From NCBI GenBank assembly GCA_903916195.1, contig CAIWVP010000111.1:66530-130529 (forward strand): DNA of 64,000 bases, given 5' to 3'. Made by a program: the position numbers and the translations under genes. A model generated the notes under the pieces. The model searched no databases. It saw nothing but the letters and a program-made list of their open reading frames with translations, and was not told the DNA's origin. Every line of letters starts with the position of its first letter. The first letter of the stretch is position 1. Below are positions 12,346-34,549 of this stretch, one piece after another. This stretch comes from an uncultured Verrucomicrobiota bacterium (lineage in GTDB: Bacteria; Verrucomicrobiota; Verrucomicrobiia; Limisphaerales; UBA9464).

Positions 12346-13806
12346 TTATTTTCGCGGACCGATGAAGGCGGTCTCCACGGTCTCGATGCGTTTGCCGTCG
12401 GCATAGACGCCGATGGCGAGCGGGGTGGTGGAGCTGGTGAGATGTTTTGGGTCGAGCTCCACGAGCACGGAGGTCTCGGCGAGCTGGTCGCCCGGTACGA
12501 TGAAGTCCTTCGCGCCGAGCACGACGACCTTGCCCTCGTCGCGGTCGAGGTGGAACTGCACCGAGAGGTCGCGGTGGGTCTTGTTGATGACCTTCACCGT
12601 GTAGAGGTTGCTGATGCGGCCTTCGCCAGCTTGCTGGAACAGCGTGCCGGGCGCGCGCAGGAAGATCGCCTGCACGTCGGCCCGGGTGAGCACCAAGAAG
12701 ACGAAGAGCGCGATCAGACCGGTGAGGATGACGGCATAGAGCTTCATCCGGTGGGTGAAGCGGAGGGGGTGGCCGTGGTCGATGCCGTCGGACGAGGCGT
12801 AGCGGATGAGGCCGCCCGGCCGCCCGACCTTTTCCATCACGGCGTCGCAGGCGTCGATGCAGGCGGTGCAGTTGACGCACTCCATCTGGATGCCGTCGCG
12901 GATGTCGATGCCGGTGGGGCACACGGCGACGCACTGGTGGCAGTCCACGCAGTCGCCCTTCGCCTCGGCGCGCCGCAGCTCCAGTCGTTGGTCGCGCTTC
13001 CACGGGGCGCGCTGCTCGCCGCGCTTGTGGTCGTAGGCCACCACCATGGTGTTCTCATCGAGCAGCGCGGACTGGAAGCGGCCGTAGGGGCAGATGAAGG
13101 TGCAGGCCTGCTCGCGGAAGCGCGCGAAGATGGCGTAGAACACCAAGGTGAAGAGCACCATGGCCCCGAGGCCGACGAGATGGTTCTTCGGGTCGTCGGC
13201 GATGATGTGCCGCAGGTCGTCGCTGCCGATGATGTAGCTCAGCAGCGTGTTCCCGATGAGGAACGACAGCCCGAAGAACACGGCGTGCTTGAGCAGCTTC
13301 TTCGCGGTCTTCGCGGCGGTCCACGGCGCGGCGTCGAGGGCGCGCTGCTGGTGGGCATCGCCCTCGATGAGGTATTCGAGCTTCCGGAAGACCATCTCCA
13401 TCATGATGGTCTGCGGGCAGGTCCAGCCGCACCACAGCCGGCCGAACGCCGTCGTGAAGATCATGATGCCGGCGAAGAACGTCAGCATCGCGACCGCGAA
13501 GATGATGCCGTCCTCCGGCCAGAAGATATGGCCGAGGATGGCGAACCGCCGCTCCACGATGTTGAACATCAGGAGCGGGTTGCCGTTGATCCGGATGAAC
13601 GGGCCCGCGAACATCCCGCCGATGAGCGCCCAGCTCATCCAGGTCCGCCAACGATACCATTTCCCGGCGGGTTGCTTGGCATGGACCCAACGGCGGCGGC
13701 CGTCCTTGTGGGCGGTCGCGAGATGCTCGCGGAAGTCCTGCCAGTCCACCTCGCGGGCCGCGGTCTGCGGGCCGGCCGGCCCGGGTTGGTCGACAGGTCC
13801 GCTCAC
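12346..13806 (-). CDS. ccoG: cbb3 oxidase accessory protein CcoG (FixG), polyferredoxin-like
   Basis: 486 aa from GTG at 13806, which overlaps the ccoP stop as GTGA. Several membrane helices in the first half include WCGWTCPQTIMMEMVFRKLE and CTFICPYGRFQSALLD. Two 4Fe-4S motifs follow: CVDCHQCVAVCPTGIDIR and CVNCTACIDACDAVM. The C-terminal periplasmic Ig-like domain includes VKVINKTHRD. This is the full CcoG/RdxA arrangement. Family members are linked to cuprous copper supply to the cbb3 oxidase. The gene lies directly after the structural cco genes as expected. Confidence 0.93.
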   Translation of the reverse strand: MSGPVDQPGPAGPQTAAREVDWQDFREHLATAHKDGRRRWVHAKQPAGKWYRWRTWMSWALIGGMFAGPFIRINGNPLLMFNIVERRFAILGHIFWPEDGIIFAVAMLTFFAGIMIFTTAFGRLWCGWTCPQTIMMEMVFRKLEYLIEGDAHQQRALDAAPWTAAKTAKKLLKHAVFFGLSFLIGNTLLSYIIGSDDLRHIIADDPKNHLVGLGAMVLFTLVFYAIFARFREQACTFICPYGRFQSALLDENTMVVAYDHKRGEQRAPWKRDQRLELRRAEAKGDCVDCHQCVAVCPTGIDIRDGIQMECVNCTACIDACDAVMEKVGRPGGLIRYASSDGIDHGHPLRFTHRMKLYAVILTGLIALFVFLVLTRADVQAIFLRAPGTLFQQAGEGRISNLYTVKVINKTHRDLSVQFHLDRDEGKVVVLGAKDFIVPGDQLAETSVLVELDPKHLTSSTTPLAIGVYADGKRIETVETAFIGPRK

Positions 13807-14399
13807 TCGAACACCTCGGTCGGGACCGGGGCCTGGTCCTCGCGGATCTTGGGGTTGGGCGGATGGGTGCCGCGCAACGTGAAGATGTAGCTGGCCACGG
13901 CGTGGATGTCGGACGGCGTCAGCACGCCCTTCCAGGTGAGCATGCCTTTCTCGGGCACGCCGGTGATGACGATCTTCAGGTTGTCGCCGAACTTGTCGCC
14001 ATGGATCCAGTAGTCGTCGCAGAGGTTCGGTCCGACCAACCCGCCGCCGTCGTTGCGGTGGCAGGGCGCGCAGTAGGTCGTGAACACCTGGCCGCCTTTC
14101 GCGAGCACGACCAGGTCCCTCGACGGCTCCAGCGATCCAAGCGTCGATTCGAACTTCTGCTGCGCGGCGTCCTTGATGGCATCGCCGAGGGTCATCTCCT
14201 TGGTGTAGGCGGCGATCTGGAGGTCGCCTTTGCCCAGCACGTGGTAGTAGCCCATGTAGAGCAAGGCGAAGAGCGTGCAGAGGTAGAACAGCCACACCCA
14301 CCAGCGGGGCAGGTTGTTGTCGAGCTCCTGGATGCCGTCGTATTCGTGGTCGAGCAGCAACGGGTCCTGGTCCTGCTTCCGGTCCTTGGGGTCATTCAT
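13803..14399 (-). CDS. ccoP: cbb3-type cytochrome c oxidase subunit III, mono-haem (CcoP)
   Basis: 198 aa. The N-terminal FixP-like part has the acidic DHEYDGIQELDNNLPRWW lead into one membrane helix (VWLFYLCTLFALLYMGYYHV), followed by a single c-type haem domain with YCAPCH and a later LTPSDIHAVASYIFTLRG. Canonical proteobacterial CcoP has two haems and about 300 aa; this short mono-haem form goes with CcoN-CcoO fusions in other phyla. It would accept electrons from soluble cytochrome c or ACIII. GGAG precedes the ATG, and the start overlaps the end of ccoQ by 8 nt. Confidence 0.9.
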   Translation of the reverse strand: MNDPKDRKQDQDPLLLDHEYDGIQELDNNLPRWWVWLFYLCTLFALLYMGYYHVLGKGDLQIAAYTKEMTLGDAIKDAAQQKFESTLGSLEPSRDLVVLAKGGQVFTTYCAPCHRNDGGGLVGPNLCDDYWIHGDKFGDNLKIVITGVPEKGMLTWKGVLTPSDIHAVASYIFTLRGTHPPNPKIREDQAPVPTEVFE

Positions 14400-14592
14400 G
14401 GCGGGGTTCTCCTTCGATGGAGGTGAGGGCGCGGTCATCGGCGAGGGGCAGGGCGCCCATCGCGTCCATCAGGGACCTCCGTTGGGCGAAGGTCCAGATG
14501 AGCGCGCCGATGAAGACGGCGAAGAAGAGGCAGACCGAGATGACGCCGTAGAGTCCGACGCCGCCGAGGTCGCTGAGAACGTTCTTGATCAT
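14392..14592 (-). CDS. ccoQ: CcoQ/FixQ-like small cbb3 oxidase subunit
   Basis: 66 aa with one membrane helix (VGLYGVISVCLFFAVFIGAL) and a short charged tail, placed between ccoNO and ccoP as FixQ usually is. Such subunits stabilise the oxidase complex. Identification rests mainly on position, length and topology; the sequence is too short for a motif. It starts 6 nt after the ccoNO stop and its last codons overlap the start of ccoP. Confidence 0.8.
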   Translation of the reverse strand: MIKNVLSDLGGVGLYGVISVCLFFAVFIGALIWTFAQRRSLMDAMGALPLADDRALTSIEGEPRHE

Positions 14593-14598
14593 GATCGG

Positions 14599-16779
14599 TC
14601 AGCGGCCGGGGTTGAGGTTGGAGGCGGTCGCGGGAGCGGCGGTCGGCGGGCCCTCCGCGGTCTTGGGCGCGGTCTTGATGTCGGTGCCGAGACGCTGCAG
14701 GTAGGCGATGAGGCCGATGATCTCGGAATCCGGCGGCGCGTTGCTGATCGAGCCGATGCGGAGGTTGGCGACGATCTTCTTCGCCTGCGCGGCGAGGTCC
14801 TTCTGGGCCGGACCGTTCTCGAAGCCGGCGGGATAAGGCACGCCGATCTTGCGCAACGCGGAGAGGCGGGACGGGAGCGCGTTGGTCTCCAGGTTCTGGG
14901 TCAGCAGCCACGGATAGGGCGGCATGATGGATCCCGGCGAGGTGGAGCGCGGGTTCTCCATGTGGTTGTAGTGCCACGCGTCGGGATACTTGCCGCCCTC
15001 GCGGTGGAGGTCCGGTCCCGTCCGCTTGGAGCCCCAGAGGAACGGGTGGTCGAACACGAACTCGCCGGCCTTGGAGTACTCGCCGTAGCGCTCGGTCTCG
15101 CTGCGGAACGGCCGGATCATCTGCGAGTGGCAGCCCACGCAGCCCTCGCGGATGTAGATGTCGCGGCCGAGCACCTCGAGCGGCGTGTAGGGCTTGACGC
15201 TGGAGAGGGTCGGGACGTTGTGCTTGATGAGGAACATCGGGATGATCTCGACCAATCCACCGATGGCGACGGCGACGGTCGCGAGCACGGTGAGGAGCAC
15301 GGGCTTCGATTCGAGCCAGCGGTGGCCCTTCTCCGCCGGGGCCTGCGGGTCGTCGGCGAGCGAGGCGGCCCGGGCCTCGGTGTCCGGCTCGAACACGCCG
15401 CTCTTCGCCGTCTTGTAGAGGTTGTAGGCGCCGATGGCCGTGCCGAGGATGTAGAGCGAGCCGCCGATGGCGCGCAGGCGGTACATCGGGACGATCTGCA
15501 GCACCGTCTCGAGGAAGTTCGGGTACTGGAGGAAGCCGTCCTTGGTGAACTGCTTCCACATCAGGCCCTGCGTCACGCCGGCCCAATACATCGGGACGGC
15601 GTAGAACATGATCCCCAGCAACCCGAGCCAGAAGTGCCAGTTGGCGAGCTTCACCGAATAGAGCGACGTGCGGTAGAGGCGCGGGAAGAGGTAGTACAGC
15701 ATCGAGAACGTCATGAAGCCGTTCCAGCCGAGCGCGCCGGTGTGGACGTGGGCGATGGTCCAGTCGGTGTAGTGCGAGAGCGAGTTCACCGACTTGATGG
15801 ACAGCATCGGGCCTTCGAGCGTCGCCATGCCGTAGGCGGTGACCGCCACGACCATGAACTTGAGCATCGGGTCCTGGCGGACCTTGTCCCAGGCGCCCCG
15901 GAGGGTGAGCAGGCCGTTCAGCATGCCGCCCCAGGACGGCGCGACCAGCATCACGCTGAACACCATGCCGAGCGACTGCGCCCAGTCGGGCAGCGCGGTG
16001 TAGAGCAGATGGTGCGGACCGGCCCAGATGTAGAGGAAGATGAGCGCCCAGAAATGGATGATCGAGAGCCGGTAGCTGAACACCGGGCGGTTGGCGGCCT
16101 TGGGCAGGAAGTAGTACATCAGGCCCAGGTAGGGCGTGGTGAGGAAGAACGCGACGGCGTTGTGGCCGTACCACCACTGCACCAGCGCATCCTGCACGCC
16201 GGCGTAGACCGAGTAGCTCTTGAACGGCCCGGCGGGCATCTCCAACGAGTTGACGATGTGGAGCACCGCGACCGTGAGCGCCGTGGCGATGTAGAACCAG
16301 ATGGCGACGTAGAGATGCTTCTCGCGGCGCCGGATGATGGTGCCGAGCAGGTTCACCGTGAATGCCACCCAGATGAGCGCGATGGCGATGTCGATGGGCC
16401 ATTCCAGCTCCGCGTACTCCTTGCTGGTGGTCAGGCCGAGCGGGAGCGTGACGGCGGCGGCGACGATGATGGCGTTCCAGCCCCAGAAGTTGATCCAGCT
16501 CAGCGCATCGCTGAACATGCGCGCCTTGCAGAGCCGCTGGAGCGAATAGTAGATGCCCATGAACATGCCGTTGCCCACGAAGGCGAAGATCACCGCGTTC
16601 GTGTGCAACGGCCGCAGCCGGCCGAAGCTGACGAACTGCAGGCTGAGGTTCGCCTCGGGCCAGAACAGCTGGATGGCCGCCAGCAGACCGGCACTCATGC
16701 CCACCAGGCCCCATATGACCGTCGCGATGGCGAACGCGCGCACGATCCGGTTGTCGTATCTGAATGTCTCGATCTTCAT
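14599..16779 (-). CDS. ccoN: cbb3-type oxidase subunits I and II fused (CcoNO)
   Basis: 726 aa. Residues 1-460 are CcoN with about 12 membrane helices and all metal ligands: H59 in FGRLRPLHTN, H206 in WWYGHN, H256-H257 in GPHH, and H344 and H346 in IAHVHTGALGWNG. Residues about 490-726 are CcoO with a membrane helix and haem site CVGCH at 547-551 followed by SQMIRPF. This is the catalytic core that reduces oxygen at the haem b3-CuB site. The fusion avoids a separate ccoO gene and is known from Bacteroidetes and relatives. It starts 2 nt after the ccoS stop, within a tightly packed operon. Confidence 0.95.
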   Translation of the reverse strand: MKIETFRYDNRIVRAFAIATVIWGLVGMSAGLLAAIQLFWPEANLSLQFVSFGRLRPLHTNAVIFAFVGNGMFMGIYYSLQRLCKARMFSDALSWINFWGWNAIIVAAAVTLPLGLTTSKEYAELEWPIDIAIALIWVAFTVNLLGTIIRRREKHLYVAIWFYIATALTVAVLHIVNSLEMPAGPFKSYSVYAGVQDALVQWWYGHNAVAFFLTTPYLGLMYYFLPKAANRPVFSYRLSIIHFWALIFLYIWAGPHHLLYTALPDWAQSLGMVFSVMLVAPSWGGMLNGLLTLRGAWDKVRQDPMLKFMVVAVTAYGMATLEGPMLSIKSVNSLSHYTDWTIAHVHTGALGWNGFMTFSMLYYLFPRLYRTSLYSVKLANWHFWLGLLGIMFYAVPMYWAGVTQGLMWKQFTKDGFLQYPNFLETVLQIVPMYRLRAIGGSLYILGTAIGAYNLYKTAKSGVFEPDTEARAASLADDPQAPAEKGHRWLESKPVLLTVLATVAVAIGGLVEIIPMFLIKHNVPTLSSVKPYTPLEVLGRDIYIREGCVGCHSQMIRPFRSETERYGEYSKAGEFVFDHPFLWGSKRTGPDLHREGGKYPDAWHYNHMENPRSTSPGSIMPPYPWLLTQNLETNALPSRLSALRKIGVPYPAGFENGPAQKDLAAQAKKIVANLRIGSISNAPPDSEIIGLIAYLQRLGTDIKTAPKTAEGPPTAAPATASNLNPGR

Positions 16780-19787: not shown

Positions 19788-19947
19788 CGCCGTGATCGAG
19801 GTTGTCGCGCGGGGTCCGGCGGTCCAGAACCTAGGGTGTCAGGACAAGACGGACCGGTTTGTCGGGCCAGTTGGATCAGCAGAACGAACAAGCAGACCTG
19901 TGCGGGCGTGGCCACGCGGCACGGGTAGGCAGACGGAAAACCGAGCG

Positions 19948-20583
19948 ATGTCCTTCATCTTCCCCAAATGGGCGAACACGCTGCCGCTGAAAGTGGCGGT
20001 GGGCGCCGTCCTGGCCGCCAGCGCGGCCGGCGCGGGCATCACCTATTACCTCACGCCGAAATGGACGCGCGTGGGCTACACCCCCAAGCAGCCGGTGGCC
20101 TTCTCGCACAAGGTCCACAACGAGCAGCTCGGCATCGATTGCCGTTATTGCCATTCCGCCGTCGAGAAATCGTGGTTCTCGAACATCCCGGCGGCGAGCA
20201 CCTGCATGAACTGCCACAGCCTCATCCTGAAGGATGACCCGAAGCTGGCGTTGGTGCGCGAATCCTACCAGACCGGCAAGCCCATCCCGTGGGTGCAGGT
20301 CCACAAGGTGCCCGATTACGTCTATTTCAACCACTCGGTCCATGTGAACCGCGGCATCAGCTGTGTCCACTGCCACGGCCAGATCAACCAGATGGAAGAG
20401 GTCCAGCACGCGAAACCGCTCTCCATGGGCTTCTGCCTGGATTGCCACCGCGCGCCGGAAGAAAAAATCCGCCCGGTCGAACTGGTCACCCAGCTGGATT
20501 GGAAAGGCGTCGTGGACGGTAAGAAGCTGGTGCATGACTGGAACGTGAAGCCCGGCCAGAGCTGTTCGACCTGCCACCGATGA
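19948..20583 (+). CDS. actA: ACIII pentahaem cytochrome c subunit (ActA)
   Basis: 211 aa. One N-terminal membrane helix (about residues 14-35) anchors a periplasmic domain with five CxxCH sites at 65-69, 86-90, 139-143, 163-167 and 206-210. Extra His residues (FSHKVHNEQ, FNHSVH) can serve as distal ligands. This matches the pentahaem subunit of Alternative Complex III, a quinol:electron-acceptor oxidoreductase that replaces the bc1 complex in many phyla. It is the first gene of the operon. The stop overlaps the next start as ATGA. The ATG at 19948 is chosen because it places the membrane helix at the N-terminus. Confidence 0.95.
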   Translation: MSFIFPKWANTLPLKVAVGAVLAASAAGAGITYYLTPKWTRVGYTPKQPVAFSHKVHNEQLGIDCRYCHSAVEKSWFSNIPAASTCMNCHSLILKDDPKLALVRESYQTGKPIPWVQVHKVPDYVYFNHSVHVNRGISCVHCHGQINQMEEVQHAKPLSMGFCLDCHRAPEEKIRPVELVTQLDWKGVVDGKKLVHDWNVKPGQSCSTCHR

Positions 20584-23500
20584 AGACCATCCCCCCCGTT
20601 TGTCCCGAGCCGGTGACCGGCCCCAAGTATTGGCGTTCTCTCGACCAGCTCGCCGAGCGTCCTGAGTTCCGCCAGTGGCTCGACCAAGAGTTCCCGTCCG
20701 GCGCCAGCATCGCACCCGAGGGCGAGACCCGCCGCGAGTGGATGAAGCTCATGTCGGCCAGCTTCCTTTTGGCCGGCCTCGGTGGTTTTGCCTCGGGTTG
20801 CCGTCGACCGGAAGAGCACCTGACCCCTTTTGCCAAGCAACCGGAGAACTACACCCACGGGGGGTGGCAGTATTTCGCGACCTCGATGCCGAGCCGCGGC
20901 AGTGCCCAAGCGCTCATCGTCAAGTCGAGCGACGGCCGGCCGACCAAGATCGAGGGCAACCCGCTCCATCCCGATAGCAACGGCGCCACCGACGGTTTTG
21001 CCCAAGCAGCGCTGCTGAACCTGTACGATCCGGACCGCGCTTACCGGCATACGTTCCAGGGCAACGACGTCAAGGTCGAGAAGGTGGTCGACCAGCTGTC
21101 CTTGACCGCCAAGAAGTTCGCCGCGACCGGTGGCGAAGGCTTGGCCATCCTCGCGGAGCGGAGTTCCTCTGCTTCGCGGGCCGCGTTGCAGGCCAAGTTG
21201 GCGGACAAGCTTCCGAAGGCGAAGTGGTACCTGTACGAGCCGGTGGATTTCGCGGTCGCCGCGCAAGCTGCCAGCATCGCCTACGGTGCCCGTGTCGTGC
21301 CGCACGTCCATCTGGAGAAGGCGAAGCGCATCCTCTCGCTGGATTGCGATTTCCTCAGCACGGATTCCGATACCACGCACCACATCCGCGGGTTCGCCAA
21401 AGGCCGCAAGCCGGGCGACGGGATGAACCGGCTGTATGTCGTCGAATCGCTCCAATCGCTGACCGGCGGTAGCGCCGACCATCGGCTCCGGGTGCGCCCG
21501 ACCGATGTCGTGAAGGTCGCCGCCCACATCGCCAGCTTCGTCGCCAGCGGCGAGCTCGGTGTGGCGCTCAAGGCCCTCTCCAAGGGTTCTCCTGCTTCCG
21601 ACAAGTGGGCCGGCGAAGCTGCCAAGGACCTTGTCGCCCACAAGGGCGAGGCGGTCGTGGTGGCTGGTTACGCCCAACCTCTCGCGGTCCACCTCATCGC
21701 CAGCGCGCTGAACTCGCTGCTCGGCGCGGTCGGCCCGGTGGTTGAGCTGCTGCCCGACACCGAGAAGAGCGACGGCGGCATCGCTGATGCGGTCGCCGCG
21801 CTGAACGGGGGGCTCGACACGCTCGTGGTCCTCGGCGGCAACCCCGCCTACAACGCCCCGACCGAGCTTGATTTCTCGGCCGCGGTGAAGAAGGCCAAGA
21901 CCGTCATCCGCCTCGGATACTACGAGGACGAGACGGCCTTGGTCTCCACGTGGCACCTTGCTGGCGCCCACTTCCTTGAATCGTGGGGCGATGCCCGCAC
22001 CTCGGACGGCACGCTGGTGCCGGTCCAGCCGCTCATCGAACCGCTTTTCGGCGGCCTGACCGAGATCGAGGTGCTCGCGCGCCTGCTCGGGGAAGCGAAA
22101 CCCGCTCCGTATGAGGTCGTGCGTGCCACTTTTGGTCGGGACGACCAGGCGTGGAAGCAGTTCCTCCACGACGGATTCCTCAAGGACAGCGCGCCCAAGG
22201 CGATCACCGCCGCGTTCGACGCGACGGCCGTCGCGCAGGCGCTGGCCGCCTTCAAGCCCATCGTCGCTTCCGGCTACGATGTCGTGCTCTACCGCGACGC
22301 GAAGGTCGATGACGGTCGGTTCGCCAACAACGGTTGGCTCCAAGAGCTTCCGGATCCCGTGACCAAGCTGGTCTGGGGCAACGCGGTCATCGTCTCGCCC
22401 GCCACCGGCAAGAAGCTCGGAGTTACTGCCAAGACCGCCGATGGACGGGGCGACACCGACGACGCCGCGCACGCGCACGACGGCCAGTTCAAGAACCAGA
22501 TCATCAAGGTCGACCTCGGAGGTCGTACGATCGAGGGCGCCGTCTGGGTCCAGCCCGGGTTCGCCGACGACACCATCGGGCTCGCGCTCGGCTACGGTCG
22601 CCGCAAGGTCGGCCGCGTCGGATCCGCTTGCGGCTTCGATGCCTATGCGTTCTACGCGAAGGCCGGCGGCCACATCGTGACCGGAGCGAAGGCCGAGAAG
22701 ATCCACAAGAAGGAGTATCTCGCCACGACCCAGGAGCACGGCCTCATGGAAGGCCGTCCGATCATCCGCGAAGCCAATCTGGCCCAGTTCAAGACGAAGC
22801 CCGAGTTCGCCCAGAACATGGACCTGGAGGCGCATCTGCCGCACTACGTCCCCTACAACGACGACGGCACGATCAAGAACATCTACAAGCATCCCTACAA
22901 ACAGAACCCGGAGACCAAGTCCGAGGTGCATCAGTGGGGGATGACGGTGGACCTGGCCTCGTGCGTCGGTTGCGCGGCCTGCGTCGTCGCCTGCCAGGCG
23001 GAGAACAACATCCCCATCGTCGGCAAGGACCAGGTCATGCGCGGTCGCGAGATGCACTGGATCCGCATCGATCGTTACTACAGCCACGATGCCGACCTGG
23101 AGGTCACGCACGAGCACGCCTCGGCCGATCCTCAGATGGCGGTGCAGCCGATGTTCTGCCAGCACTGCGAGAGCGCGCCGTGCGAGAGCGTCTGCCCGGT
23201 GAACGCCACGGTGCACGACGAGGAAGGCCTCAACGTGATGGCCTACAACCGCTGCATCGGCACGCGGTATTGCGCGAACAACTGTCCGTTCAAGGTCCGC
23301 CGGTTCAACTTCTTCGATTTCAACAAGCGCGAGCCCGATTACGCGAAGGTCCAGGGCCAGTTCTTCTTGAACACGGGCAACCTCTACAAGGGGCCGCTCG
23401 CCGAGGACCGGAACGAAGCGCCGAACTGGGAGATCATCAAGCTCGTCAAGAACCCCGACGTCTCGGTCCGCATGCGCGGCGTCATGGAGAAATGCACCTT

Positions 23501-23906
23501 CTGCGTGCAGCGGATCGAGCAGGCGAAGATCGCGCAGAAGAACATCGCCAAGGGAAGCTCGGATGTCCGCGTCCCCGAAGGCACGTTCAAGACCGCGTGC
23601 CAGCAGGCCTGCCCGGCCGAGGCGATCAACTTCGGCAACATGCTCGACCCTGAGAGCGCGGTGTCGAAGCTGAAGAAGGACCCGCGCAACTACGCCGTGC
23701 TCGGATTCCTCGATATCAAGCCGCGCGTCACTTATCTGGCGAGGGTCCGCAACCCGAACCCGGCGATGCCCGACTCGAAATCGGCGCCCGATTCGCTGCG
23801 CGACTACGAGCGATTCCGTCACGAGAACCCGTTCACCGATGAATCCGGCCACGGACACGAAGGCCACCCCGCGGCAAACGGTGCCGCGCCGAAAGGAGCA
23901 GCCTAA
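20580..23906 (+). CDS. actB: ACIII iron-sulfur / molybdopterin-like subunit (ActB)
   Basis: 1108 aa. A Tat-type signal with RR at residues 51-52 ([18 protein letters not shown]) directs export, as in other ActB proteins. Residues about 80-750 resemble the molybdopterin-oxidoreductase fold, which in ACIII carries no cofactor. Residues about 780-1010 form the ferredoxin-like domain with four cysteine clusters: [41 protein letters not shown], and CTFCVQ with CQQACP. It probably relays electrons from the quinol site to the haems. It starts in the actA stop, and its TAA shares a base with the actC ATG. Confidence 0.95.
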
Positions 23907-25390
23907 TGGCTAACGCCGCTTCCATCCACGCCGCTGACGTCCCGAAGGGCAAGCAGCACGACCCGCACGCCGCCCCGCCGAAGATCGTCGCGATCGATCC
24001 GCCGCAGGAGTTCGTCCGCGAGCCCCTGGTGCTCAACGGCCGCTCGCTCGGCTGGCTGACCGAGCGCATCGCCGGCGTCTGTGAAGGCAAGATGCCCCTC
24101 TGGTGGTGGCCGGCCTTCATCGTCAGCGCCGGGCTGATGACGATGATGTTCACGCTGGTCGCGTACCTGATCTCGACCGGTGTCGGCGTCTGGGGCCTGA
24201 ACAACCCGGCCGATTGGGCGTGGGACATCACCAACTTCGTCTTCTGGATCGGCATCGGCCACGCCGGCACGCTGATCTCCGCGGTGCTCTTCCTGCTCCG
24301 GCAGAAATGGCGCACCTCGATCAACCGCGCCGCCGAGGCCATGACGCTCATCGCGGTGGCGTGCGCCGGCATCTTCCCGGTCGTCCACACCGGCCGCGTC
24401 TGGTTTGCTTTGATGCCCGGATGGCTGATCCCGGCGCCCAACGCGAACTACATCTGGCCCCAGTTCCGTTCGCCGCTGCTCTGGGACGTCTTCGCCGTCT
24501 CCACCTACGGCACCGTCTCGCTGCTGTTCTGGTATGTCGGGTTGATCCCCGACCTCGCCACCTTGCGCGATCGCGCGAAGAACAAGGTCCGCGGGTTCTT
24601 CTACGGACTCTTCGCACTCGGCTGGACCGGCTCGAACCGTCACTGGAGCAACTACGAGAAGGCCTACATGATCTTCGCCGGCCTCAGCACCCCGTTGGTG
24701 CTCTCCGTGCACTCGATCGTCTCGTTCGACTTCGCGGTGTCCAACGTTCCCGGCTGGCACACCACCATCTTCCCGCCCTATTTCGTCGCCGGCGCCATCT
24801 TCTCCGGTTTCGGCATGGTGCTCACGCTGCTGGTCCCGATGCGGACCCTGTTCAAGCTGGAGGACATCATCACCACCCGTCACGTCGAGCTGATGTGCAA
24901 GGTGATCTTGGCCACCGGCTCGATCGTCGGGTACGCCTACGGAATGGAGTTCTTCATCGCGTGGTACGGCGGCAGCCCGTACGAGCTCTACGCCTTCAAG
25001 AACCGTGCGTTCGGTCCCTACTGGTGGGCCTACTGGAGCATGATCTCCTGCAACGTGATCAGCCCGCACCTCTTCTGGTTCAAGTGGTGCCGCACCAACA
25101 TGGTGTTCGTGTTCTTCGTGTCCATCGTCGTGAACATCGGCATGTGGTTCGAACGCTTCGTCATCATCGTGACCTCGCTGCACCGTGACTATCTGCCGGC
25201 GAGCTGGGGTTACTTCGCCCCGACCTGGGTGGACGTGTTCACTTTCGTCGGCAGCTTCGGCCTCTTCTTGACATTGTTCCTGTTGTTCATCCGGTTCCTG
25301 CCGGCCATCGCCATCTCCGAGGTCAAGGGCGTGACACCGCAGGCGGATCCGCACCACCCGCTGGGCGGTGCGAAAGGAGGGCACCACTGA
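23906..25390 (+). CDS. actC: ACIII NrfD-like membrane subunit (ActC)
   Basis: 494 aa with about ten membrane helices in the NrfD/PsrC fold. Landmarks are [14 protein letters not shown] before helix 1, [18 protein letters not shown], and the long central loop with [19 protein letters not shown]. This subunit provides one quinol-binding site in ACIII and has been proposed to contribute to proton translocation. It overlaps the actB TAA by one base and the actD ATG by one base, so translation of the three is coupled. Confidence 0.95.
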
Positions 25391-25923
25391 TGAGCGCCAA
25401 CGCCAAAACCTACGGGCTGCTCGCCCAGTTCGACACGGCCGCCGGGATCTTCGAAGCCGCCATCCAGGTCCGCGATGCCGGCTACCGCAAGTGGGACGTC
25501 TTCACGCCGTTCCCCATCCACGGGATGGACGACGCCATGGGCCTCAAGAACTCGAAGGTCGGTTACTTCACCTTCTGCGGCGGTTTCACCGGCTTCTTCA
25601 CCGGCATGACCATGATCTGGTTCATGAACAAGTTCGACTACGGCTTGGTGGTCGGCGGAAAACCGCTCTTCACCCCGCTCTACGCGTTCCCGGTGAGCTA
25701 TGAGCTCACCATCCTGCTGGGTGCGTTCGCGACGCTGGGCGGCATGCTCGCGTTGAACCGGTTGCCGAAGCTCTACAACCCGCTCTTCAAGAGCGAGCGC
25801 TTCAAGAAGGCGACGGACGACAAGTTCTTCATCTGCATCGAGGCGACCGATCCGAAGTTCGCCGAGGCCCGTGCCGTGCTCGAGAAAGCCGGGGCCGCCG
25901 CCATCGAACTCGTGGAGGACTGA
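25390..25923 (+). CDS. actD: ACIII subunit ActD (DUF3341)
   Basis: 177 aa. The start YGLLAQFDTAAGIFEAAIQV and the segment FTPFPIHGMDDAMGLK are the DUF3341/ActD signature, followed by two membrane helices (FCGGFTGFFTGMTMIWFMNK and ELTILLGAFATLGGMLAL). ActD is a structural subunit contacting ActC and ActF. The ATG at 25390 shares its first base with the actC stop. Confidence 0.93.
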   Translation: MSANAKTYGLLAQFDTAAGIFEAAIQVRDAGYRKWDVFTPFPIHGMDDAMGLKNSKVGYFTFCGGFTGFFTGMTMIWFMNKFDYGLVVGGKPLFTPLYAFPVSYELTILLGAFATLGGMLALNRLPKLYNPLFKSERFKKATDDKFFICIEATDPKFAEARAVLEKAGAAAIELVED

Positions 25924-25924
25924 C

Positions 25925-26560
25925 ATGCGCTATTTCCTCGCTCTCTTCGCGCTCGCCGTCATCGGCGGGGTCGCTGTGCTCGGTTTCCGGGGTGATATCT
26001 CCCGCCAACCGCCCCGCATGGCCGAGATCTTCTCGGACCTCAACATCCAGCCCAAGCTGCGCCCGCAGACGACCACCAAGTTCGGGGGCTTCGCTGATGG
26101 TGCGTCTTCCCGGCCTTATCCGCTCGGGACCGTCGCCCAGAAGGTCGGCTTCGCCGACAACTCCACGTACAAGGACGACGCCTACAACACCGGCAAACAG
26201 GGTGCCGCGTTCGTTGAGGTCAACCCGGTTCCCGTCACCTCTGAGTTGGTGAAGCGCGGCCAAGAGCGTTTCAACATCTATTGTCAGCCCTGCCACGGCG
26301 CCCAAGGCGACGGCAACGGCATCACCAAGAAACTCGGGATGACCACCGTGGCGAACCTGCACGACCAGCGGATCGTCCGGCTCAACGACGGCGAGATCTT
26401 CAACACCATCAGCTACGGCAAAGCCACGATGATGGGCTACGCCGGCAACGTGCCGGTCGGCGACCGTTGGGCGATCGTCGGATACCTCCGCGCTCTCCAG
26501 TTGAGCCGCCTCGCGCTCCAAGCCGACGTGCCGGCACCGGTCCTCGAAAAGCTGAAATAA
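25925..26560 (+). CDS. actE: ACIII mono-haem cytochrome c subunit (ActE)
   Basis: 211 aa. An N-terminal hydrophobic anchor (FLALFALAVIGGVAVLGF) is followed by a periplasmic domain with a single haem site CQPCH at 120-124. A likely axial Met lies in TMMGYAGNVP. ActE is one of the electron exit points of ACIII towards cytochrome c or the terminal oxidase. It begins 1 nt after the actD stop. Confidence 0.93.
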   Translation: MRYFLALFALAVIGGVAVLGFRGDISRQPPRMAEIFSDLNIQPKLRPQTTTKFGGFADGASSRPYPLGTVAQKVGFADNSTYKDDAYNTGKQGAAFVEVNPVPVTSELVKRGQERFNIYCQPCHGAQGDGNGITKKLGMTTVANLHDQRIVRLNDGEIFNTISYGKATMMGYAGNVPVGDRWAIVGYLRALQLSRLALQADVPAPVLEKLK

Positions 26561-26567
26561 GGCGACC

Positions 26568-27869
26568 ATGAACTTCCCCGTGCTTTTCAAACGGTTGCTC
26601 GCGCTGTTCGCGTGCGCCGGGATGCTGACGTTCGCGTCGGCCCGACTGCTCGCCGCCGAGCATGCTCCCGCGGCGCCTGCCCATGGCGAGACCGTCGCCG
26701 CGGCCCATGATGCCGCCGGTCCCGTCGGGACCACTGCCCACCATGGCCACGCCGAGACCAAGGAACCGACGTTCCTTGAAGCAGCGCTCTACAGCTACCT
26801 GACCGCCTACATGTTCTGCCTGAGCATCGTGGTCGGCGCGTTTTTCCTGATCCACCTGCACTATCTTTTCGACGCCGGCTGGAGCGTCCCCATCCGACGC
26901 ATCAACGAGCAGCTTGCCAGCCTCATGCCGTACATGGGTGTCCTGTCGTTGCCGATCCTCGTGTTCGGACCGTCGATCTATCCTTGGATGAGCATCGACC
27001 CCGCGACCGACCACGCGTTGGACGTGAAGAAGATCCTCTTCAACCGGCCGACGTTCATCGGCGTGATCATCGTCTGCTTCGTGTTGTGGAGCTTCATGGC
27101 GCTGCGGTTCCGCCGCATGTCGGTCGCCCAGGACAAGGACGGTGCGGCGCAATGGACGCACAAGGCCCGCTTCCAGGCGGCTTGGGGCATCTACGTGCTG
27201 GCCTTTACCCTGACGGTCGCGGTGTTCCTGCTGATGAAGTCGCTGCAGCACCAGTTCTTCAGCACGATGTACGGCGTCTACTACTTCGCCGGCAGCATGT
27301 GGGTCACCTTGGCGACCGTGTACGGGATCATGCGGATCCTGGCCCATCGGGAGCTCAACGGCGTCATCTCAAAACAGACGATCCACTACATCGGCACGCT
27401 GTTCTTCGCCTTCACCGTCTTCTACGCGTACATCCACTTCTCGCAGTACTTCCTGATCTGGAATGCCGCCATCCCCGAGGAGACGTTCTGGTACGTGAAG
27501 CGTGAGGCGGGCAGTTGGTGGGAGGTCGGCCTCCTGATCCTGTTCGGCCATTTCATCGCGCCGTTCGTGGTCCTGCTCCGCATCGACACCAAGATGAACC
27601 TGCTCGTCATGGGCCCGATGATCGCTTGGGCCTGGCTCATGCACTACGTCGACATGACCTTCAACATCATGCCCGTTCTCTACCCCAACGGGTTGCACCT
27701 GACCTTGCTCGACCCGCTCTGCTGGTTCGGCATGGCCGGATTCCTCGGGTTCATCTTCTGGAAGAACTTCAAGACCGCCGCCGCCTTCCCGTTGAAGGAT
27801 CCCCGGTTGAAGGAAGCCATCACCCACCACGAGGTGCCGGCCCCGGGTGCGGCTGCTTCCCATCACTAA
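26568..27869 (+). CDS. actF: ACIII second NrfD-like membrane subunit (ActF)
   Basis: 433 aa with about ten membrane helices. The N-terminal region looks like a signal or first helix followed by a His/Ala-rich stretch (HAPAAPAHGET to HHGHAET). Conserved-looking segments include IPEETFWYVKREAGSWWEVG and MAWAWLMHYVDM-like helices. ActF is the paralogue of ActC and pairs with it in the membrane. It lies 7 nt after actE and 9 nt before the next small gene. Confidence 0.92.
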   Translation: MNFPVLFKRLLALFACAGMLTFASARLLAAEHAPAAPAHGETVAAAHDAAGPVGTTAHHGHAETKEPTFLEAALYSYLTAYMFCLSIVVGAFFLIHLHYLFDAGWSVPIRRINEQLASLMPYMGVLSLPILVFGPSIYPWMSIDPATDHALDVKKILFNRPTFIGVIIVCFVLWSFMALRFRRMSVAQDKDGAAQWTHKARFQAAWGIYVLAFTLTVAVFLLMKSLQHQFFSTMYGVYYFAGSMWVTLATVYGIMRILAHRELNGVISKQTIHYIGTLFFAFTVFYAYIHFSQYFLIWNAAIPEETFWYVKREAGSWWEVGLLILFGHFIAPFVVLLRIDTKMNLLVMGPMIAWAWLMHYVDMTFNIMPVLYPNGLHLTLLDPLCWFGMAGFLGFIFWKNFKTAAAFPLKDPRLKEAITHHEVPAPGAAASHH

Positions 27870-27878
27870 GCCACTTCT

Positions 27879-28241
27879 ATGAGCGACGAATCCTGCTGCT
27901 CTTCCGTCGGCGTCCGCGCATCGGCCGCGGTGCTCGGCGTGCTCGGTACCCTCGTGGTGCTGGGTGCGCTCGCCGTCTACCTCGTGCGGGTCAACCAGCC
28001 GGCGCCGGTCGGTTCCGCCCGCGCCGACGAGCGCAAGAAGACCTGGACCGATCTCCAGGCCGCCAACGTCGAGACCTTGGGCGGCTACGGCGTCGTCAAG
28101 GCCGACAACGGTATCTATCGCATCCCTGTCGCCAAGGCGATGGAGGTCACCGTCACCGAATGGAAGGATGGCAACGCCGCCGGACGGGCCAAGCTGATCC
28201 AACGTCTGGAAGAATCGCTGAAGAAGGCGACTTTCGAGTGA
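27879..28241 (+). CDS. Small membrane-anchored protein of the ACIII operon, family unrecognised
   Basis: 120 aa. After SDESCCSSVGVRASA there is one membrane helix (about residues 14-37) and a short soluble domain with KKTWTDLQAANVETLGGYGV and YRIPVAKAMEVTVTEWKDG. No cofactor motif is visible. In some ACIII operons a small subunit (ActG) follows ActF, but I cannot show this protein is homologous to it. Its placement between actF and a degenerate oxidase subunit suggests it belongs to the membrane complex. The two adjacent Cys near the N-terminus are unusual. Confidence 0.7.
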   Translation: MSDESCCSSVGVRASAAVLGVLGTLVVLGALAVYLVRVNQPAPVGSARADERKKTWTDLQAANVETLGGYGVVKADNGIYRIPVAKAMEVTVTEWKDGNAAGRAKLIQRLEESLKKATFE

Positions 28242-28260: not shown

Positions 28261-29694
28261 ATGAACCGACCTTCCCCAACCACCGCCTGCGCGAACCCAT
28301 CGTGTTGCGCGACCGGCCTTCCGGTGCTCTACCTGACCGGCGGAAGCATCCTCTGGCTGCTCGCCGGCCTCGGGCTGGCTCTTTTGGCTTCCCTGAAACA
28401 GCACCAACCTTGGCTGCTGGCCAGCTGTGAGTGGGTGACCTATGGACGGCTGGATGCCGCCTCGCGGACGGCTCTGGTCCACGGATTCTTCTCCCAGATG
28501 GGGCTCGGCCTCGGGCTCTGGCTGCTCGCCCGGACGGGCGGCACCCAGATCACCGCGCCGGGGATCGTCTTCATCGCCGGTCTGGTGTGGAACACGGTGC
28601 TGACCTTGGGAGTGGCCGGGATCCTGGTCGAAGGGCCTTCGGGCCGATCGTCCTTGGAGCTTCCGGGACAGCTGGTCACCGTGCTCACCGTGGTGTCGAC
28701 GCTGCTCTGTCTGCTCGGCTTCGCGACCTTCGCCAAGCGGTCCGAAGGTCCGACGGTGCCGACGCAATGGTTTGTCCTGGCCGCGTTGCTGGCGTTGCCG
28801 TTGTTCGCGATCACCTCGCAAGTGACCCTTTCGATTTTTCCGGAGCGTGGTGTGCTGCAAGCGGTGATCGATGGTTGGAACGGCCAAGGACTGTTGCTGC
28901 TGTGGTTGGCACCGCTCGCGCTGGCCTCGCTTTATTTTTACATCCCGGACATCGGCGGTCGTCCGCTGCGCTCTCCGGCTTTCGCGAAGCTCGGCTTCTG
29001 GGCTTGGGTCTTCTTCGCGAGCTGGACCGGAGCCTCCAATCTCGTCGGTGGACCGGTCCCGGCATGGATGGTCACCGTGAGCATCGCTGCGTCGGTGCTG
29101 CTGCTCATCCCGGTGGCGTTCATCAGCCTCAATCTCCACTTCGTCGCCCCGGTCTCCGCGCTCGGTCGTTCGACCGCGCTGCGGTTCGCGGCCCTTTCGG
29201 CCATCAGTTTCACCGTGGTCGGGATCTTGACCGCTCTCACGTCTCCGCGTTGCGCGCAGCAGGTGCTCGGGTTGACCCAGTTCCCCGTCGCTGTCCGCGA
29301 GTTGTTCTTGTTCGGTTTCGTCGGGCCTGCCCTGTTCGCCGGTTACTACGCGGTGGTTCCGAAGCTCGCCGGACGCGAGTTCCCGTGCCGGCTCTTGCCG
29401 GTGGCACACCTCGGCCTGACCGTCATCGGACTCGGCATCATGGTGTTCTCCTCCGGTGTCGGCGGATGGCTCCAAGGTTGGGCGTTGGCCGACGGCAAGG
29501 TCGGGTTCCCGGAAGTCGCCGCGCATCTCCAGATCTGGCTGAAACTGCATACGCTCGGGCTCGCGGTGTTCGCCTTTGGCCAGACCGCGGTGCTGGCGAA
29601 CTCGGTCTGGCTGCTGGTCGAGTGCCTGTTGCCGTTCGGCAAACCGGCCTTGGCCCTCTTCTCGGAAACGTCCCCGGCCGTCGCCGGGAAATGA
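28261..29694 (+). CDS. CcoN-like haem-copper oxidase subunit I homologue with all metal ligands replaced
   Basis: 477 aa with about 12 membrane helices. It aligns by eye with the CcoN half of the ccoNO product in this window. Every position that binds haem or copper in that protein is changed. H59 becomes S68 (TYGRLDAASRTALV), H206 becomes Q209 (WNGQG), H256-H257 become S259-N260 (WTGASN), and H344 and H346 become V345 and E347 (PVAVRELFLFGF). Flanking residues such as TYGRL, W-x-G and YxxVPKL remain recognisable. It therefore cannot carry the usual haem b, haem b3 and CuB. It is followed directly by a CcoO-like cytochrome, and the pair closes the ACIII operon. The role is unknown; a structural or electron-transfer subunit is possible. 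Confidence 0.8.
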   Translation: MNRPSPTTACANPSCCATGLPVLYLTGGSILWLLAGLGLALLASLKQHQPWLLASCEWVTYGRLDAASRTALVHGFFSQMGLGLGLWLLARTGGTQITAPGIVFIAGLVWNTVLTLGVAGILVEGPSGRSSLELPGQLVTVLTVVSTLLCLLGFATFAKRSEGPTVPTQWFVLAALLALPLFAITSQVTLSIFPERGVLQAVIDGWNGQGLLLLWLAPLALASLYFYIPDIGGRPLRSPAFAKLGFWAWVFFASWTGASNLVGGPVPAWMVTVSIAASVLLLIPVAFISLNLHFVAPVSALGRSTALRFAALSAISFTVVGILTALTSPRCAQQVLGLTQFPVAVRELFLFGFVGPALFAGYYAVVPKLAGREFPCRLLPVAHLGLTVIGLGIMVFSSGVGGWLQGWALADGKVGFPEVAAHLQIWLKLHTLGLAVFAFGQTAVLANSVWLLVECLLPFGKPALALFSETSPAVAGK

Positions 29695-29698
29695 AGCG

Positions 29699-30355
29699 AT
29701 GAACCACGGCCCTGTCCTTTTCCTCGGTCTGGTCACGACGCTGGTCGCGTCGTGGACCGGGTTCGTCGCGCTGCCACATCGTCAACTCGGCGCCTTGCAG
29801 CCCGATATCAGCACCAATGCCGCAGGTGCGATCGTGGCCTATCCCGCGGCCCGCAGCGGTGAAGCCGCCCAAGGCGCGGAGGTCTACCGTTCGCTGGGTT
29901 GCGTCGCCTGCCATACCCAGCAGGTCCGTCCCGAGAACGGCGGCGGCGACATCGCTCGCGGCTGGGGAAAGCGTCGCACCGTCGCCCGCGACCATCTCTT
30001 CGATCCGACCGTCCTGCTCGGCAGCAGTCGCTTGGGCCCCGACTTGGCGAACTACGGCGAACGCCTCGGTACGAACGCGTTCCCGCTGGTCCGTCTCTAT
30101 CATCCGTCATCGGCCGCGACCCACTCGACCTGTGCGCCGGTGCCGTTCCTTTTCGAGCAACGTCCGATCCGCAGCAGCGGATCTTCGCCTGAGGCCTTGG
30201 TGCTGAAGGGAACCGCGGCACCGCCGGTCGGATCCGAGGTCGTGCCGACGTTGCGCGCCCGGCAGCTCGCGGCCTATCTCCGCAGCCTGGGCACGTCCGT
30301 GGAATTGCCGGAAGCACTGCTGCCGCAGGTCGAAGACGCCAACGCCCCGAAATGA
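29699..30355 (+). CDS. CcoO-like mono-haem cytochrome c
   Basis: 218 aa. An N-terminal membrane helix (VLFLGLVTTLVASWTGFVAL) precedes a haem site CVACH at 68-72 followed by TQQVRPENGG. The spacing and the QxxRP after the haem match CcoO, where the motif in this window's own oxidase is CVGCHSQMIRPF. GPDLANYGERLGTNAFPLVRLYHP also resembles CcoO. It starts 4 nt after the CcoN-like gene and overlaps the next gene as ATGA. It probably pairs with the ligand-less CcoN-like protein. Confidence 0.85.
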   Translation: MNHGPVLFLGLVTTLVASWTGFVALPHRQLGALQPDISTNAAGAIVAYPAARSGEAAQGAEVYRSLGCVACHTQQVRPENGGGDIARGWGKRRTVARDHLFDPTVLLGSSRLGPDLANYGERLGTNAFPLVRLYHPSSAATHSTCAPVPFLFEQRPIRSSGSSPEALVLKGTAAPPVGSEVVPTLRARQLAAYLRSLGTSVELPEALLPQVEDANAPK

Positions 30356-31092
30356 GCGCCGACGCCAAACATTCTTCTCCGAGCCGAAGCTCCCGGTCCG
30401 AACGCGGTTCCGGCCTCATCGAGACCGTCGTGCTGCTCGGCAGCACGGTGCTGCTCGTATGGGGCGGACTCTACGTGGGCAGCTACAGCGGCCGATTCGA
30501 CGCCTCCGAGTTCAGCGAGGTCCCGCACGGCCGGCCGACGAAACCGGTGGCCGTCTCAGCGGACCCGAACGCGGCGGTGTTGAAGGCGGGGCTCAAGGGG
30601 TACAACAACACCTGCGTCGCTTGCCATCAGGCCGACGGCAACGGCAATCCTTCGCTCAATATCCCGCCGCTCGCCGGATCCGATTGGGTCTTGGCCGACG
30701 CGCCGAACCGGATCGTCCGCATCGTGCTCCATGGCTTGGGTGGTCCAGTGAAGGTAAAAGACACCGTGTGGAGCGGTGGAGCGATGAACCCGTGGCTCAA
30801 GACCGCGGACAATCCTGCCGGACTGACGCCGGATGAGATCGCGGCGACATTGAGCTATGTCCGCAACAGCTGGGGCAACAAGGCCAGCTTGGTGTCGACT
30901 GAACAGGTCGCGGCCATCCTGAAGGAGACCGAGAAGCGTTCGGATCCGTGGACAGAGCAAGAGCTTCTCAAGGTACCGCTGGCCGCCGGAGCCCCCGCCA
31001 TGGCGGCACTCACTCCGGACCAGCTGAAGCTCGCCCTCAAGGCGCTTCCCGCCGACGCGCTCGAGGCGCTGCTCAAAGACGTCAAGAAGTGA
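30352..31092 (+). CDS. Membrane-anchored cytochrome c with C-terminal extension
   Basis: 246 aa. A membrane helix lies at about residues 22-42, with an unusually long polar N-terminus before it. Then comes one c-type haem domain with CVACH at 88-92 and GGAMNPWLKTADNPAGL, which supplies a likely Met ligand. About 60 residues after the haem fold are helical and rich in Ala/Leu/Lys with no motif. It is placed like CcoP after a CcoN/CcoO-like pair, which makes the last three genes a copy of a cbb3 gene order. The ATG overlaps the preceding stop. Confidence 0.85.
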   Translation: MSADAKHSSPSRSSRSERGSGLIETVVLLGSTVLLVWGGLYVGSYSGRFDASEFSEVPHGRPTKPVAVSADPNAAVLKAGLKGYNNTCVACHQADGNGNPSLNIPPLAGSDWVLADAPNRIVRIVLHGLGGPVKVKDTVWSGGAMNPWLKTADNPAGLTPDEIAATLSYVRNSWGNKASLVSTEQVAAILKETEKRSDPWTEQELLKVPLAAGAPAMAALTPDQLKLALKALPADALEALLKDVKK

Positions 31093-31291
31093 CGTCGAGC
31101 GGTCGACCGGGAATCCGAGTTCGACGCCGCCGACGCTTGCCGGAAGTACGGCCCCTCTGACCCGTCTCCCTCGACCTCGATTTGGGTCGGCGATAGGCGG
31201 GCTGACCTAGTTCCGCGACATCAGCGAGACTCCTGTCCCAGCTGGCGCTTGCTCGACCGGCTTTCCGCTGCTCTTGTCCGAGGCAACGAGC
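31093..31291. other. Intergenic region after the ACIII operon
   Basis: About 200 nt between the last cytochrome gene and the M16 peptidase gene. I see no strong hairpin with a T-run, no tRNA and no plausible small gene. The promoter of the peptidase pair should lie here. Confidence 0.4.
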
Positions 31292-33028: not shown

Positions 33029-33043
33029 ACCGCTGAACGCGTG

Positions 33044-34549
33044 ATGAACATGAACCCGAGGATCCTTTCTCTCGCCGCGGTGCTGGTCGCCTTGTCGCCC
33101 GCCTTCGCCGCCGACATCCCCGACCGGCCGGAGAAGCTCCGCTTCCCGCCGCTCACCTTCGAGCCGCCGAGCGCCGCACAGTCCCGCGTGCCGCTCAAGG
33201 CCGGGCCGGTCGCCTACGTGGTGCCCGACCGCACGTTGCCGCTCGTGAACATCAGCATCCTCGTCCGGACGGGGAACTACCTCGACCCGCAGGGCCGCGA
33301 GGGCGTCGCGGAGTTCACCGGTTATCTCCTGACCCGCGGGGGCACGAAGTCGAAGACCGCCGAGGAGCTCGAGGAGCGCCTCGCTTTCCTCGCCGCGGGC
33401 CTCGGTTCGGGCGTGGGCGACGACCAGGGCAGCGTCAACCTGAACCTGCTCTCGAAGGATCTGCCCGAAGGCCTCGCTCTCCTCCGCGAGGTGCTCACCG
33501 CGCCGCGCTTCCAGCAGGACAAGCTCGAGCTCTACCGCCAGCAGAACCTCCAGGCGATGAAGCAGCGGAACGACGATTCCACCGCGATCGAGGGCCGCGA
33601 GAAGGAGATGCTCGCCTACGGCACGAACTTCTGGGCCTGCCGCTACACCACCCAGAAGAGCGTCGCCTCGATCACGGCCGACGACCTGCGTGCCTTCCAC
33701 CAGCGGTGGTTCCATCCGGCGAACTTCGTCGTCGCCGTGAGCGGCGATTTCGACCGCGCCGACATGGTGGCGAAACTGGAGGCGCTCTTCGCCGATTGGC
33801 CCTCCCAGGGCGAGGTCCCGCCGCCGGTCCCGACCGACATCGCGATGGCCGAGCCCGGTGTCTACATGGTCGACAAGGACGTGAACCAGGGCCGCGTCTC
33901 GGTGCTGCTGCCCGGCGTGCACCGCGACGACCCCGACATGCCGGCGGTGATGGTGATGAACGACATCCTCGGCGGCGGCGGCTTCACCTCCCGCATCATG
34001 AACCGCGTGCGGTCCGATGAAGGCCTCGCCTACGGCGCCGGCAGCGCGTTCCCGGCCGGCGTGCACTACCCGCTCGCCTTCCAGGCCGGCTTCGCCTCGA
34101 AGTCCGCGACCGTCGCCTATGCGACCAGCATCGTGCTCGAGGAGATGAACCGCATCAGCTCCACGCCGGTGAGCGACCAGGAGCTGGACACGGCGAAGCG
34201 CTCCTTCATCGACACCTTCCCGGAGAACTTCAACACCAAGGGCAAGGTCGCCGGGTTGTTTGCGCGCGAGGAGTTCACCGGCCGCTACGCGAAGAAGCCC
34301 GATCACTTCGCCCAATGGCGCGGCCGCATCGAGGCCGTGACCAAGGCGGACGTGCAGCGCGTCGCCCAGAAGCATCTGCATCCGGAGAAGGCGGTCATCC
34401 TCGTCGTCGGCCAGAAAGAAGAGATCCTCAAGGGGAATCCCGGTCATCCCGTCGAGCTCAAGCAGTTGGCGAGCGGCCGGTTGACCGAGCTGCCGCTCCG
34501 CGACCCGCTCACGATGGAGCCGATGCCCAAGCAGAAGGCGGAGAAGTAG
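33044..34549 (+). CDS. M16-family peptidase-like protein, inactive partner
   Basis: 501 aa from the ATG at 33044; a GTG at 33041 and an ATG at 33050 are equally possible. A signal peptide is present (ILSLAAVLVALSPAFA). The position of HxxEH is occupied by GVAEFTGYLLTRGGT, so no zinc site is present. The Arg-Tyr motif of non-catalytic M16 subunits is present in SRIMNRVRSDEGLAYGAGS. It probably forms a heterodimer with the preceding peptidase in the periplasm. Confidence 0.88.
   Translation: MNMNPRILSLAAVLVALSPAFAADIPDRPEKLRFPPLTFEPPSAAQSRVPLKAGPVAYVVPDRTLPLVNISILVRTGNYLDPQGREGVAEFTGYLLTRGGTKSKTAEELEERLAFLAAGLGSGVGDDQGSVNLNLLSKDLPEGLALLREVLTAPRFQQDKLELYRQQNLQAMKQRNDDSTAIEGREKEMLAYGTNFWACRYTTQKSVASITADDLRAFHQRWFHPANFVVAVSGDFDRADMVAKLEALFADWPSQGEVPPPVPTDIAMAEPGVYMVDKDVNQGRVSVLLPGVHRDDPDMPAVMVMNDILGGGGFTSRIMNRVRSDEGLAYGAGSAFPAGVHYPLAFQAGFASKSATVAYATSIVLEEMNRISSTPVSDQELDTAKRSFIDTFPENFNTKGKVAGLFAREEFTGRYAKKPDHFAQWRGRIEAVTKADVQRVAQKHLHPEKAVILVVGQKEEILKGNPGHPVELKQLASGRLTELPLRDPLTMEPMPKQKAEK

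Follow-up and report, generated by a model that had tools for sequence, protein, structure and literature searches.

A CcoN-like protein of the ACIII operon has lost its metal ligands at most loci in one class of Verrucomicrobiota

The genes that adjoin ACIII in verrucomicrobial methanotrophs have been described as a cbb3-type oxidase, both in a FEMS review, which gives the Opitutaceae as the other case (PMC8498564), and in the genome paper of strain Kam1 (PMC6688271), and a high affinity for O2 or a supercomplex with ACIII is discussed in both. The cbb3 type is listed among the oxidases of verrucomicrobial methanotrophs (PMC10205796), and a C-type oxidase adjoining ACIII has been seen only in these groups (PMC8498564, citing Refojo 2010). 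Automatic annotation and genome papers count the gene as a high-affinity cbb3, the protein passing the Pfam COX1 model. We analysed such a locus in a 64,000-nucleotide stretch of DNA from an uncultured Verrucomicrobiota bacterium (GCA_903916195.1, contig CAIWVP010000111.1), referred to here as the window. Its operon runs ActABCDEF, an ActG-like gene and then, at its end, an N-O-P trio whose genes overlap or nearly touch and whose frames are intact, and a genuine cbb3 operon lies divergently alongside. The features of the locus are:

13803..14438, minus strand: CcoP-like cytochrome c of the genuine cbb3 operon (ORF with a CAPCH motif)
14599..16779, minus strand (divergent): genuine CcoNO with six His and Tyr, the reference sequence (NF011053, 1260 bits; PF00115, 412 bits)
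19792..20583, plus strand: ActA, multihaem cytochrome c (five CxxCH motifs in the ORF; synteny; start codon uncertain)
20580..23906, plus strand: ActB, molybdopterin-like and FeS domains (ORF, synteny)
23906..25390, plus strand: ActC, NrfD-like quinol subunit (PF03916, 71 bits)
25390..25923, plus strand: ActD (synteny)
25871..26560, plus strand: ActE, monohaem cytochrome c (PF13442, 41 bits; synteny; start codon uncertain)
26568..27869, plus strand: ActF (operon place and conservation in 111 loci; no Pfam match)
27879..28241, plus strand: ActG-like single-pass membrane protein, 120 aa (weak ActG profile match; synteny)
28261..29694, plus strand: N-like protein, 477 aa, CcoN fold, metal ligands absent (PF00115; PDB CcoN; model)
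28462..28464, plus strand: codon for S68, at CcoNO H59, a haem b ligand (alignments)
28885..28887, plus strand: codon for Q209, at CcoNO H206, a CuB ligand (alignments)
29035..29040, plus strand: codons for S259 and N260, at CcoNO H256 and H257, the CuB ligand pair (alignments)
29293..29295, plus strand: codon for V345, at CcoNO H344, a haem ligand (alignments)
29299..29301, plus strand: codon for E347, at CcoNO H346, a haem ligand (alignments)
29699..30355, plus strand: O-like monohaem cytochrome c, 218 aa, CVACH at 68-72 and QQVRP (PF02433; Cys145 at the CcoO axial-Met site)
30352..31092, plus strand: P-like monohaem cytochrome c, 246 aa (PF00034, 41 bits)

The ActG-like product gave a weak match to ActG of the solved ACIII 8k9e (profile, E 0.026) with which its length and place agree, and by synteny its gene was found in nearly all operons of the series described below.

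The N-like protein passed PF00115 (100 bits, cut-off 34.8) and failed the NCBIfam equivalog TIGR00780 ccoN (68.5 bits, cut-off 583), and all five of its PDB sequence matches were CcoN (3mk7, E 1e-15). Its AlphaFold model, built with 41 homologues (pLDDT 91, pTM 0.91), superposed on CcoN 3mk7 with a Z of 52.4 (1.7 Å over 443 residues) and on the best NorB with a Z of 44.3, placing CcoN nearest to this 12-helix subunit I fold; assignment to NorB or to another family was rejected, as CcoN was closer both by PDB sequence matches and by structure. The original prediction was that this protein has lost all six metal-ligand His, and the same six residues were recovered, with the CcoNO of the window as reference, in independent alignments (phmmer to 3mk7; MAFFT with 4 CcoN and 54 to 128 homologues), none of which places His at any of the six sites. 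Misalignment of the His sites was rejected, given that the motifs on either side line up and that intact homologues connect the N-like protein to CcoN. The active-site cross-linked Tyr of CcoN is replaced by Ala. By its sequence and its predicted structure the N-like protein is a CcoN-fold pseudoenzyme, with the catalytic residues gone, the fold kept and the gene under purifying selection; judged from the ligand loss, it should be unable to reduce O2.

The two cytochromes that accompany it were as predicted, with the O-like protein keeping its haem site (CVACH and QQVRP; PF02433 FixO, 44 bits, cut-off 29.6) and the monohaem P-like protein completing the N-O-P order. Across the homologues described below, CxxCH was kept in 116 of 116 O proteins and a single CxxCH was found in all 112 P homologues. 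An alignment of axial ligands put Cys145 of the window's O-like protein at the position of the CcoO axial Met, a Met that was kept in 37 of 37 lineages with an intact N and was Cys in 26 of 79 lineages with a ligand-less one; the carriers were every one of the 17 ligand-less members of the window's family (f1), the window's own copy among them, and all 9 from f26. Six further ligand-less lineages have R, H, K or A at this site. Met-to-Cys exchange in O was considered as a correlate of N loss and rejected, as it occurs in ligand-less lineages only but represents two independent contrasts and is not significant. His/Cys ligation of haem is expected to lower its potential, and an O protein with an axial Cys may have ceased to act as a plain wire.

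The arrangement was followed through related genomes, 56 of 58 of which were matched, 55 of them with an ACIII-type N (the window's own included), and in an even draw across the phylum the strong matches fell in the same class of Verrucomicrobiota. A scan of genome contigs gave two loci only, the wider set coming from the genome search, and in all N was found inside the ACIII operon at 118 loci from 69 genera and 34 families of this one class; two of these lie at contig ends where N, O and P alone are visible, and were assigned through their genus. ActF, ActG-like, N, O and P are all covered at 97 loci, and at each of them the genes share one strand and one order and overlap or nearly touch. 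Because the arrangement recurs at 118 loci it is not due to chance. Outside the class, two ACIII outgroups (G252 and G264) carry ActB-F, a small membrane protein at the place of the ActG-like one, Sco/CoxB-like genes and aa3, with no N-O-P. Complete deletion of the trio also occurs: in G065 (f27) ACIII and the ActG-like gene are followed by aa3-type small subunits, and the trio is dispensable there.

The ligand state of N was all-or-nothing across the 118 loci. All six His and Tyr were present at 39 loci and at the other 79 there were none to three His (0 His at 34 loci, 1 at 38, 2 at 5 and 3 at 2), never four or five, and never Tyr; we refer to these copies as intact and dead, labels that rest on the ligand residues. 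Loss of ligands, as noted in the window, is shared widely, at 79 of the 118 loci, but not throughout, 39 having kept the complete set. No genus had mixed states, and three families had both (f1, f25 and f28). About 45 positions at which intact copies hardly vary have drifted in the dead ones. They include Arg residues that should meet the haem propionates, an acidic residue close to the calcium site and polar residues of the channel, roles which we assign from what is generally known of CcoN. No column of the dead copies is conserved as His, Met or Cys at 80%, so no replacement ligand is evident, and dead N would be expected to hold neither haem nor copper. At the same 80% level, 9 of 60 periplasmic-loop positions were conserved compared to 0 of 38 cytoplasmic-loop positions, but overall there was no significant periplasmic concentration (p 0.24), so that this analysis lends a docking role no direct support.

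Selection on dead N was estimated from eight close pairs, in which dN/dS was 0.05-0.29, values like those of ActF and a little higher than those of intact N (0.04-0.09). For the window's protein compared with L036 the value was 0.095, not near 1, and with its intact open reading frame a recent pseudogene was rejected. The original prediction of a pseudo-oxidase scaffold recruited into ACIII stands in that this is a conserved ligand-less member of the ACIII operon; its recruitment does not. Close relatives in the same family have an intact N at the same place in the operon, so a dead N arriving as a newcomer was rejected; the ACIII genes, together with O and P, likewise indicate a change in place, and one that happened many times.

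How often that change took place depends on the tree consulted. The ActB+ActC+ActF tree interleaves intact and dead states, with at least 11 changes under unrestricted parsimony and, when regain of the six His and Tyr is barred, 20 losses, or 11-17 when well-supported branches alone are counted; the O+P tree tracks families and not ligand state, giving 12 losses (10, 7 and 3 at rising support cut-offs). The N tree puts nearly all dead copies together, with 3 losses sufficing, and such a grouping is also expected of an old dead paralogue, which counts against our best reading. The apparent repeats could on this basis be differential loss after an ancient duplication, the ancestor having carried an active and a dead N of which each lineage kept one. 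We consider this unlikely, as no fetched genome has both forms in the ACIII-linked clade and as the partners from the same operon, O+P and ACIII, follow families. The dead copies are long-branched and mutually attracting, the split is not required by AU tests, in which trees that left f1 or f28 undivided were not rejected (p 0.22 and 0.28), and the N tree itself places L161 and L169/L173 among intact copies. Because the AU tests permit the unity of f1 and of f28, and because no genome has both forms, we read the N-tree grouping as long-branch attraction. The dead L161 is a clear loss in place, since each of the three trees puts it within a group of intact members from its own family. Several losses are better supported than one, and their number is uncertain, at about 7-20.

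What dead N now does is the point on which the remaining explanations differ. It evolves faster than intact N by branch length, mean conservation of its membrane part is about 0.48 (0.70-0.73 in intact copies) and G065 has lost the trio, all as might be seen in a functionless relic, decaying and carried because O, P or the operon is needed; the full length and intact frames, about 40 positions with at least 80% identity, the low dN/dS in many separate lineages and the confidently predicted full CcoN fold make this very unlikely. That the fold and helices are retained would also suit a protein that is still a metal enzyme, binding haem or copper through other residues, but there is no conserved alternative His, Met or Cys, and the Tyr and haem-propionate Arg were lost alongside the ligands, leaving this the least credible of the explanations and an extremely improbable one. 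Pseudoenzymes often regulate active relatives, and an aa3 subunit I directly follows the trio in five families, so dead N might be an assembly factor or regulator of another oxidase such as that aa3, and no stable subunit of ACIII. This is improbable in our view: most families have no oxidase beside the trio, and N nearly always accompanies ACIII genes and a pair of haem proteins, an indication of electron transfer. Holding cytochromes c in an ACIII assembly, the docking role that was originally proposed, would be the most plausible reading.

The oxidases encoded elsewhere in these genomes are consistent with this division of states. In two small genomes (G058 and G203; 1.3-1.7 Mb) no bd oxidase was found and PF00115 was matched by the intact ACIII-linked N alone, a statement limited by their completeness (98-99%); if these organisms respire O2, their gene content implies that intact N must do so. 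Among about 70 genomes with dead N, which include a few (e.g. G111) whose state was assumed from the genus, each had at least one further haem-copper oxidase match except G048, which has a bd oxidase. An aa3-type subunit I gene lies directly downstream of the trio in five families (f26, f27, f31, f38 and f39), while most families have no oxidase gene adjoining it. The suggestion that the trio channels electrons to the back-to-back cbb3 oxidase is not supported as a general rule, the divergent cbb3 neighbour having been seen only in the window, L037, L038 and L059, the last of which has an intact N, and an aa3-type oxidase lying directly downstream in several families.

The reading that we favour, and think likely, is that the trio is a C-type oxidase linked to ACIII, in which the catalytic subunit was turned off repeatedly and retained as a membrane scaffold for cytochromes c. 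Its forerunner would be a C-type (cbb3-like) oxidase that the ancestor of the class encoded within its ACIII operon, and in which electrons would pass from menaquinol through ACIII and cytochromes c (ActA/ActE/P/O) to haem b of N, then to b3-CuB and O2. Once another terminal oxidase could take the electrons, the catalytic ensemble of N (six His, Tyr, haem-propionate and proton-channel residues) would have been lost in place in many lineages, and dead N would have been kept as a haem-free 12-helix membrane subunit anchoring O and P to ACIII. In such lineages electrons would leave O/P for a separate oxidase, for example the aa3 directly downstream in several families; the window's genome has for this the divergent cbb3 or else an aa3 that is unlinked. 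The data above establish the fold, the lost ligands, the place in the operon, the purifying selection, the repetition of the loss and the existence of an intact homologue, while the scaffold function, the absence of haem and copper from the protein, the assembly of the trio into ACIII and the electron route are all inferred from these comparisons. More tentatively, and as a possibility to which we would not yet commit, ACIII of this class could be a larger complex with a built-in C-type oxidase that was turned into a haem-free structural core in most lineages; it would then represent the first lineage of haem-copper pseudo-oxidases to be found, one arising by repeated parallel loss, with the neighbouring haem c retuned (Met to Cys) in the window's family and f26.

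These findings bear on the described cases. The N protein of G209 (probable Methylacidiphilum kamchatkense Kam1) reads SESHFV at the six ligand sites and that of G156 (probable Opitutus terrae) reads QQRHQQ, and a CcoNO query of G209 returned no genuine CcoN, only an O-like protein and A/B-type oxidases. A literature search found no report of this ligand loss or of a ligand-less haem-copper oxidase, most subscription papers being outside its reach. What has been counted as an oxygen-consuming oxidase probably serves, in most members of the class that carry it, as a structural component of a different complex. If N is dead in verrucomicrobial methanotrophs, inferences about their O2 affinity need revision, and counts of PF00115 overstate the oxidases of the class. 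If our reading is right, bacteria with the intact form should have an ACIII-cbb3-type assembly, as yet undescribed, that oxidises quinol and may serve the small-genome members as their sole oxidase. The locus offers a natural series (intact oxidase, dead scaffold plus another oxidase, trio absent) in which the passage from enzyme to structural subunit, and the role of an oxidase attached to ACIII, become testable.

The ACIII-adjacent "cbb3-type oxidase" of verrucomicrobial methanotrophs and Opitutaceae is very probably the same locus as that studied here, and differs in being treated as functional and of high affinity in the papers that describe it (PMC8498564, PMC6688271). With the C-family cbb3 oxidase of Pseudomonas stutzeri (3mk7) the trio has in common the 12-helix fold, the N-O-P order and a FixO-type O, and intact ACIII-linked members keep all six His and Tyr of CcoN, whereas the window's copy and 78 others are without catalytic residues. 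The trio is tied to ACIII and not to a ccoNO(Q)P operon, and its P has one haem whereas CcoP usually carries two. With the ACIII-caa3/aa3 operons of the Flavobacterium johnsoniae and Rhodothermus marinus type it shares ActA-F, the small membrane protein gene and an oxidase module, but here a C-type N-O-P trio stands between the ActG-like gene and any aa3 module. As in pseudoenzymes generally, the fold is kept, the catalytic residues are lost and the gene is under selection; here, however, a single syntenic locus has undergone the loss repeatedly, and the intact ancestral form is still present in relatives.

Three of the features noted lie in the window:

27879-28241, between ActF and the CcoN-like gene (N): ActG-like single-pass membrane protein of 120 aa
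30131-30133: Cys codon replacing the axial Met of the haem of the CcoO-like protein (O)
31274-34549, same strand as the operon: two adjacent M16-peptidase-like ORFs

The replacement of Met by Cys at the axial position of the O haem was found to be confined to lineages in which N is without the metal-ligand set (0-3 of the six His, no Tyr), and had at least two separate origins. A very divergent N-O-P trio was observed in genome G135 (L196, 5013-7179), where N is just 347 aa from stop to stop with every ligand lost and where no ActF match was present in the genome; this trio may be far advanced in decay, or may have taken on a new role.

N-O pairs standing alone, without ACIII, were observed at L142 (G075) and L153 (G156, taken as Opitutus terrae). 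Their N proteins keep all six His and the Tyr, and branch adjoining the ACIII-linked N clade; from sequence, this pair is a predicted second, unlinked C-type-like oxidase of the Opitutaceae. Full-ligand N-O pairs with ACIII absent nearby were also seen at L143-L147, L149 and L151 (family f48) and L141 (family f81), all belonging to other classes of the phylum, with a bd oxidase approximately 12 kb from the pair in G092.

The M16-peptidase-like ORFs, separated from the operon end by a gap of approximately 180 bases, do not, to the extent of the check, belong to the conserved gene cluster. An ACIII operon entirely without N-O-P was observed in G065, a relative of the methanotroph family (L193, 8600-12000), the ActG-like gene being followed directly by aa3-type small subunits. 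Nearly all operons of the class carry the 120-aa protein, which is probably ActG rather than the product of a new gene, because it gave a weak profile match to the ActG of the solved ACIII (8k9e).
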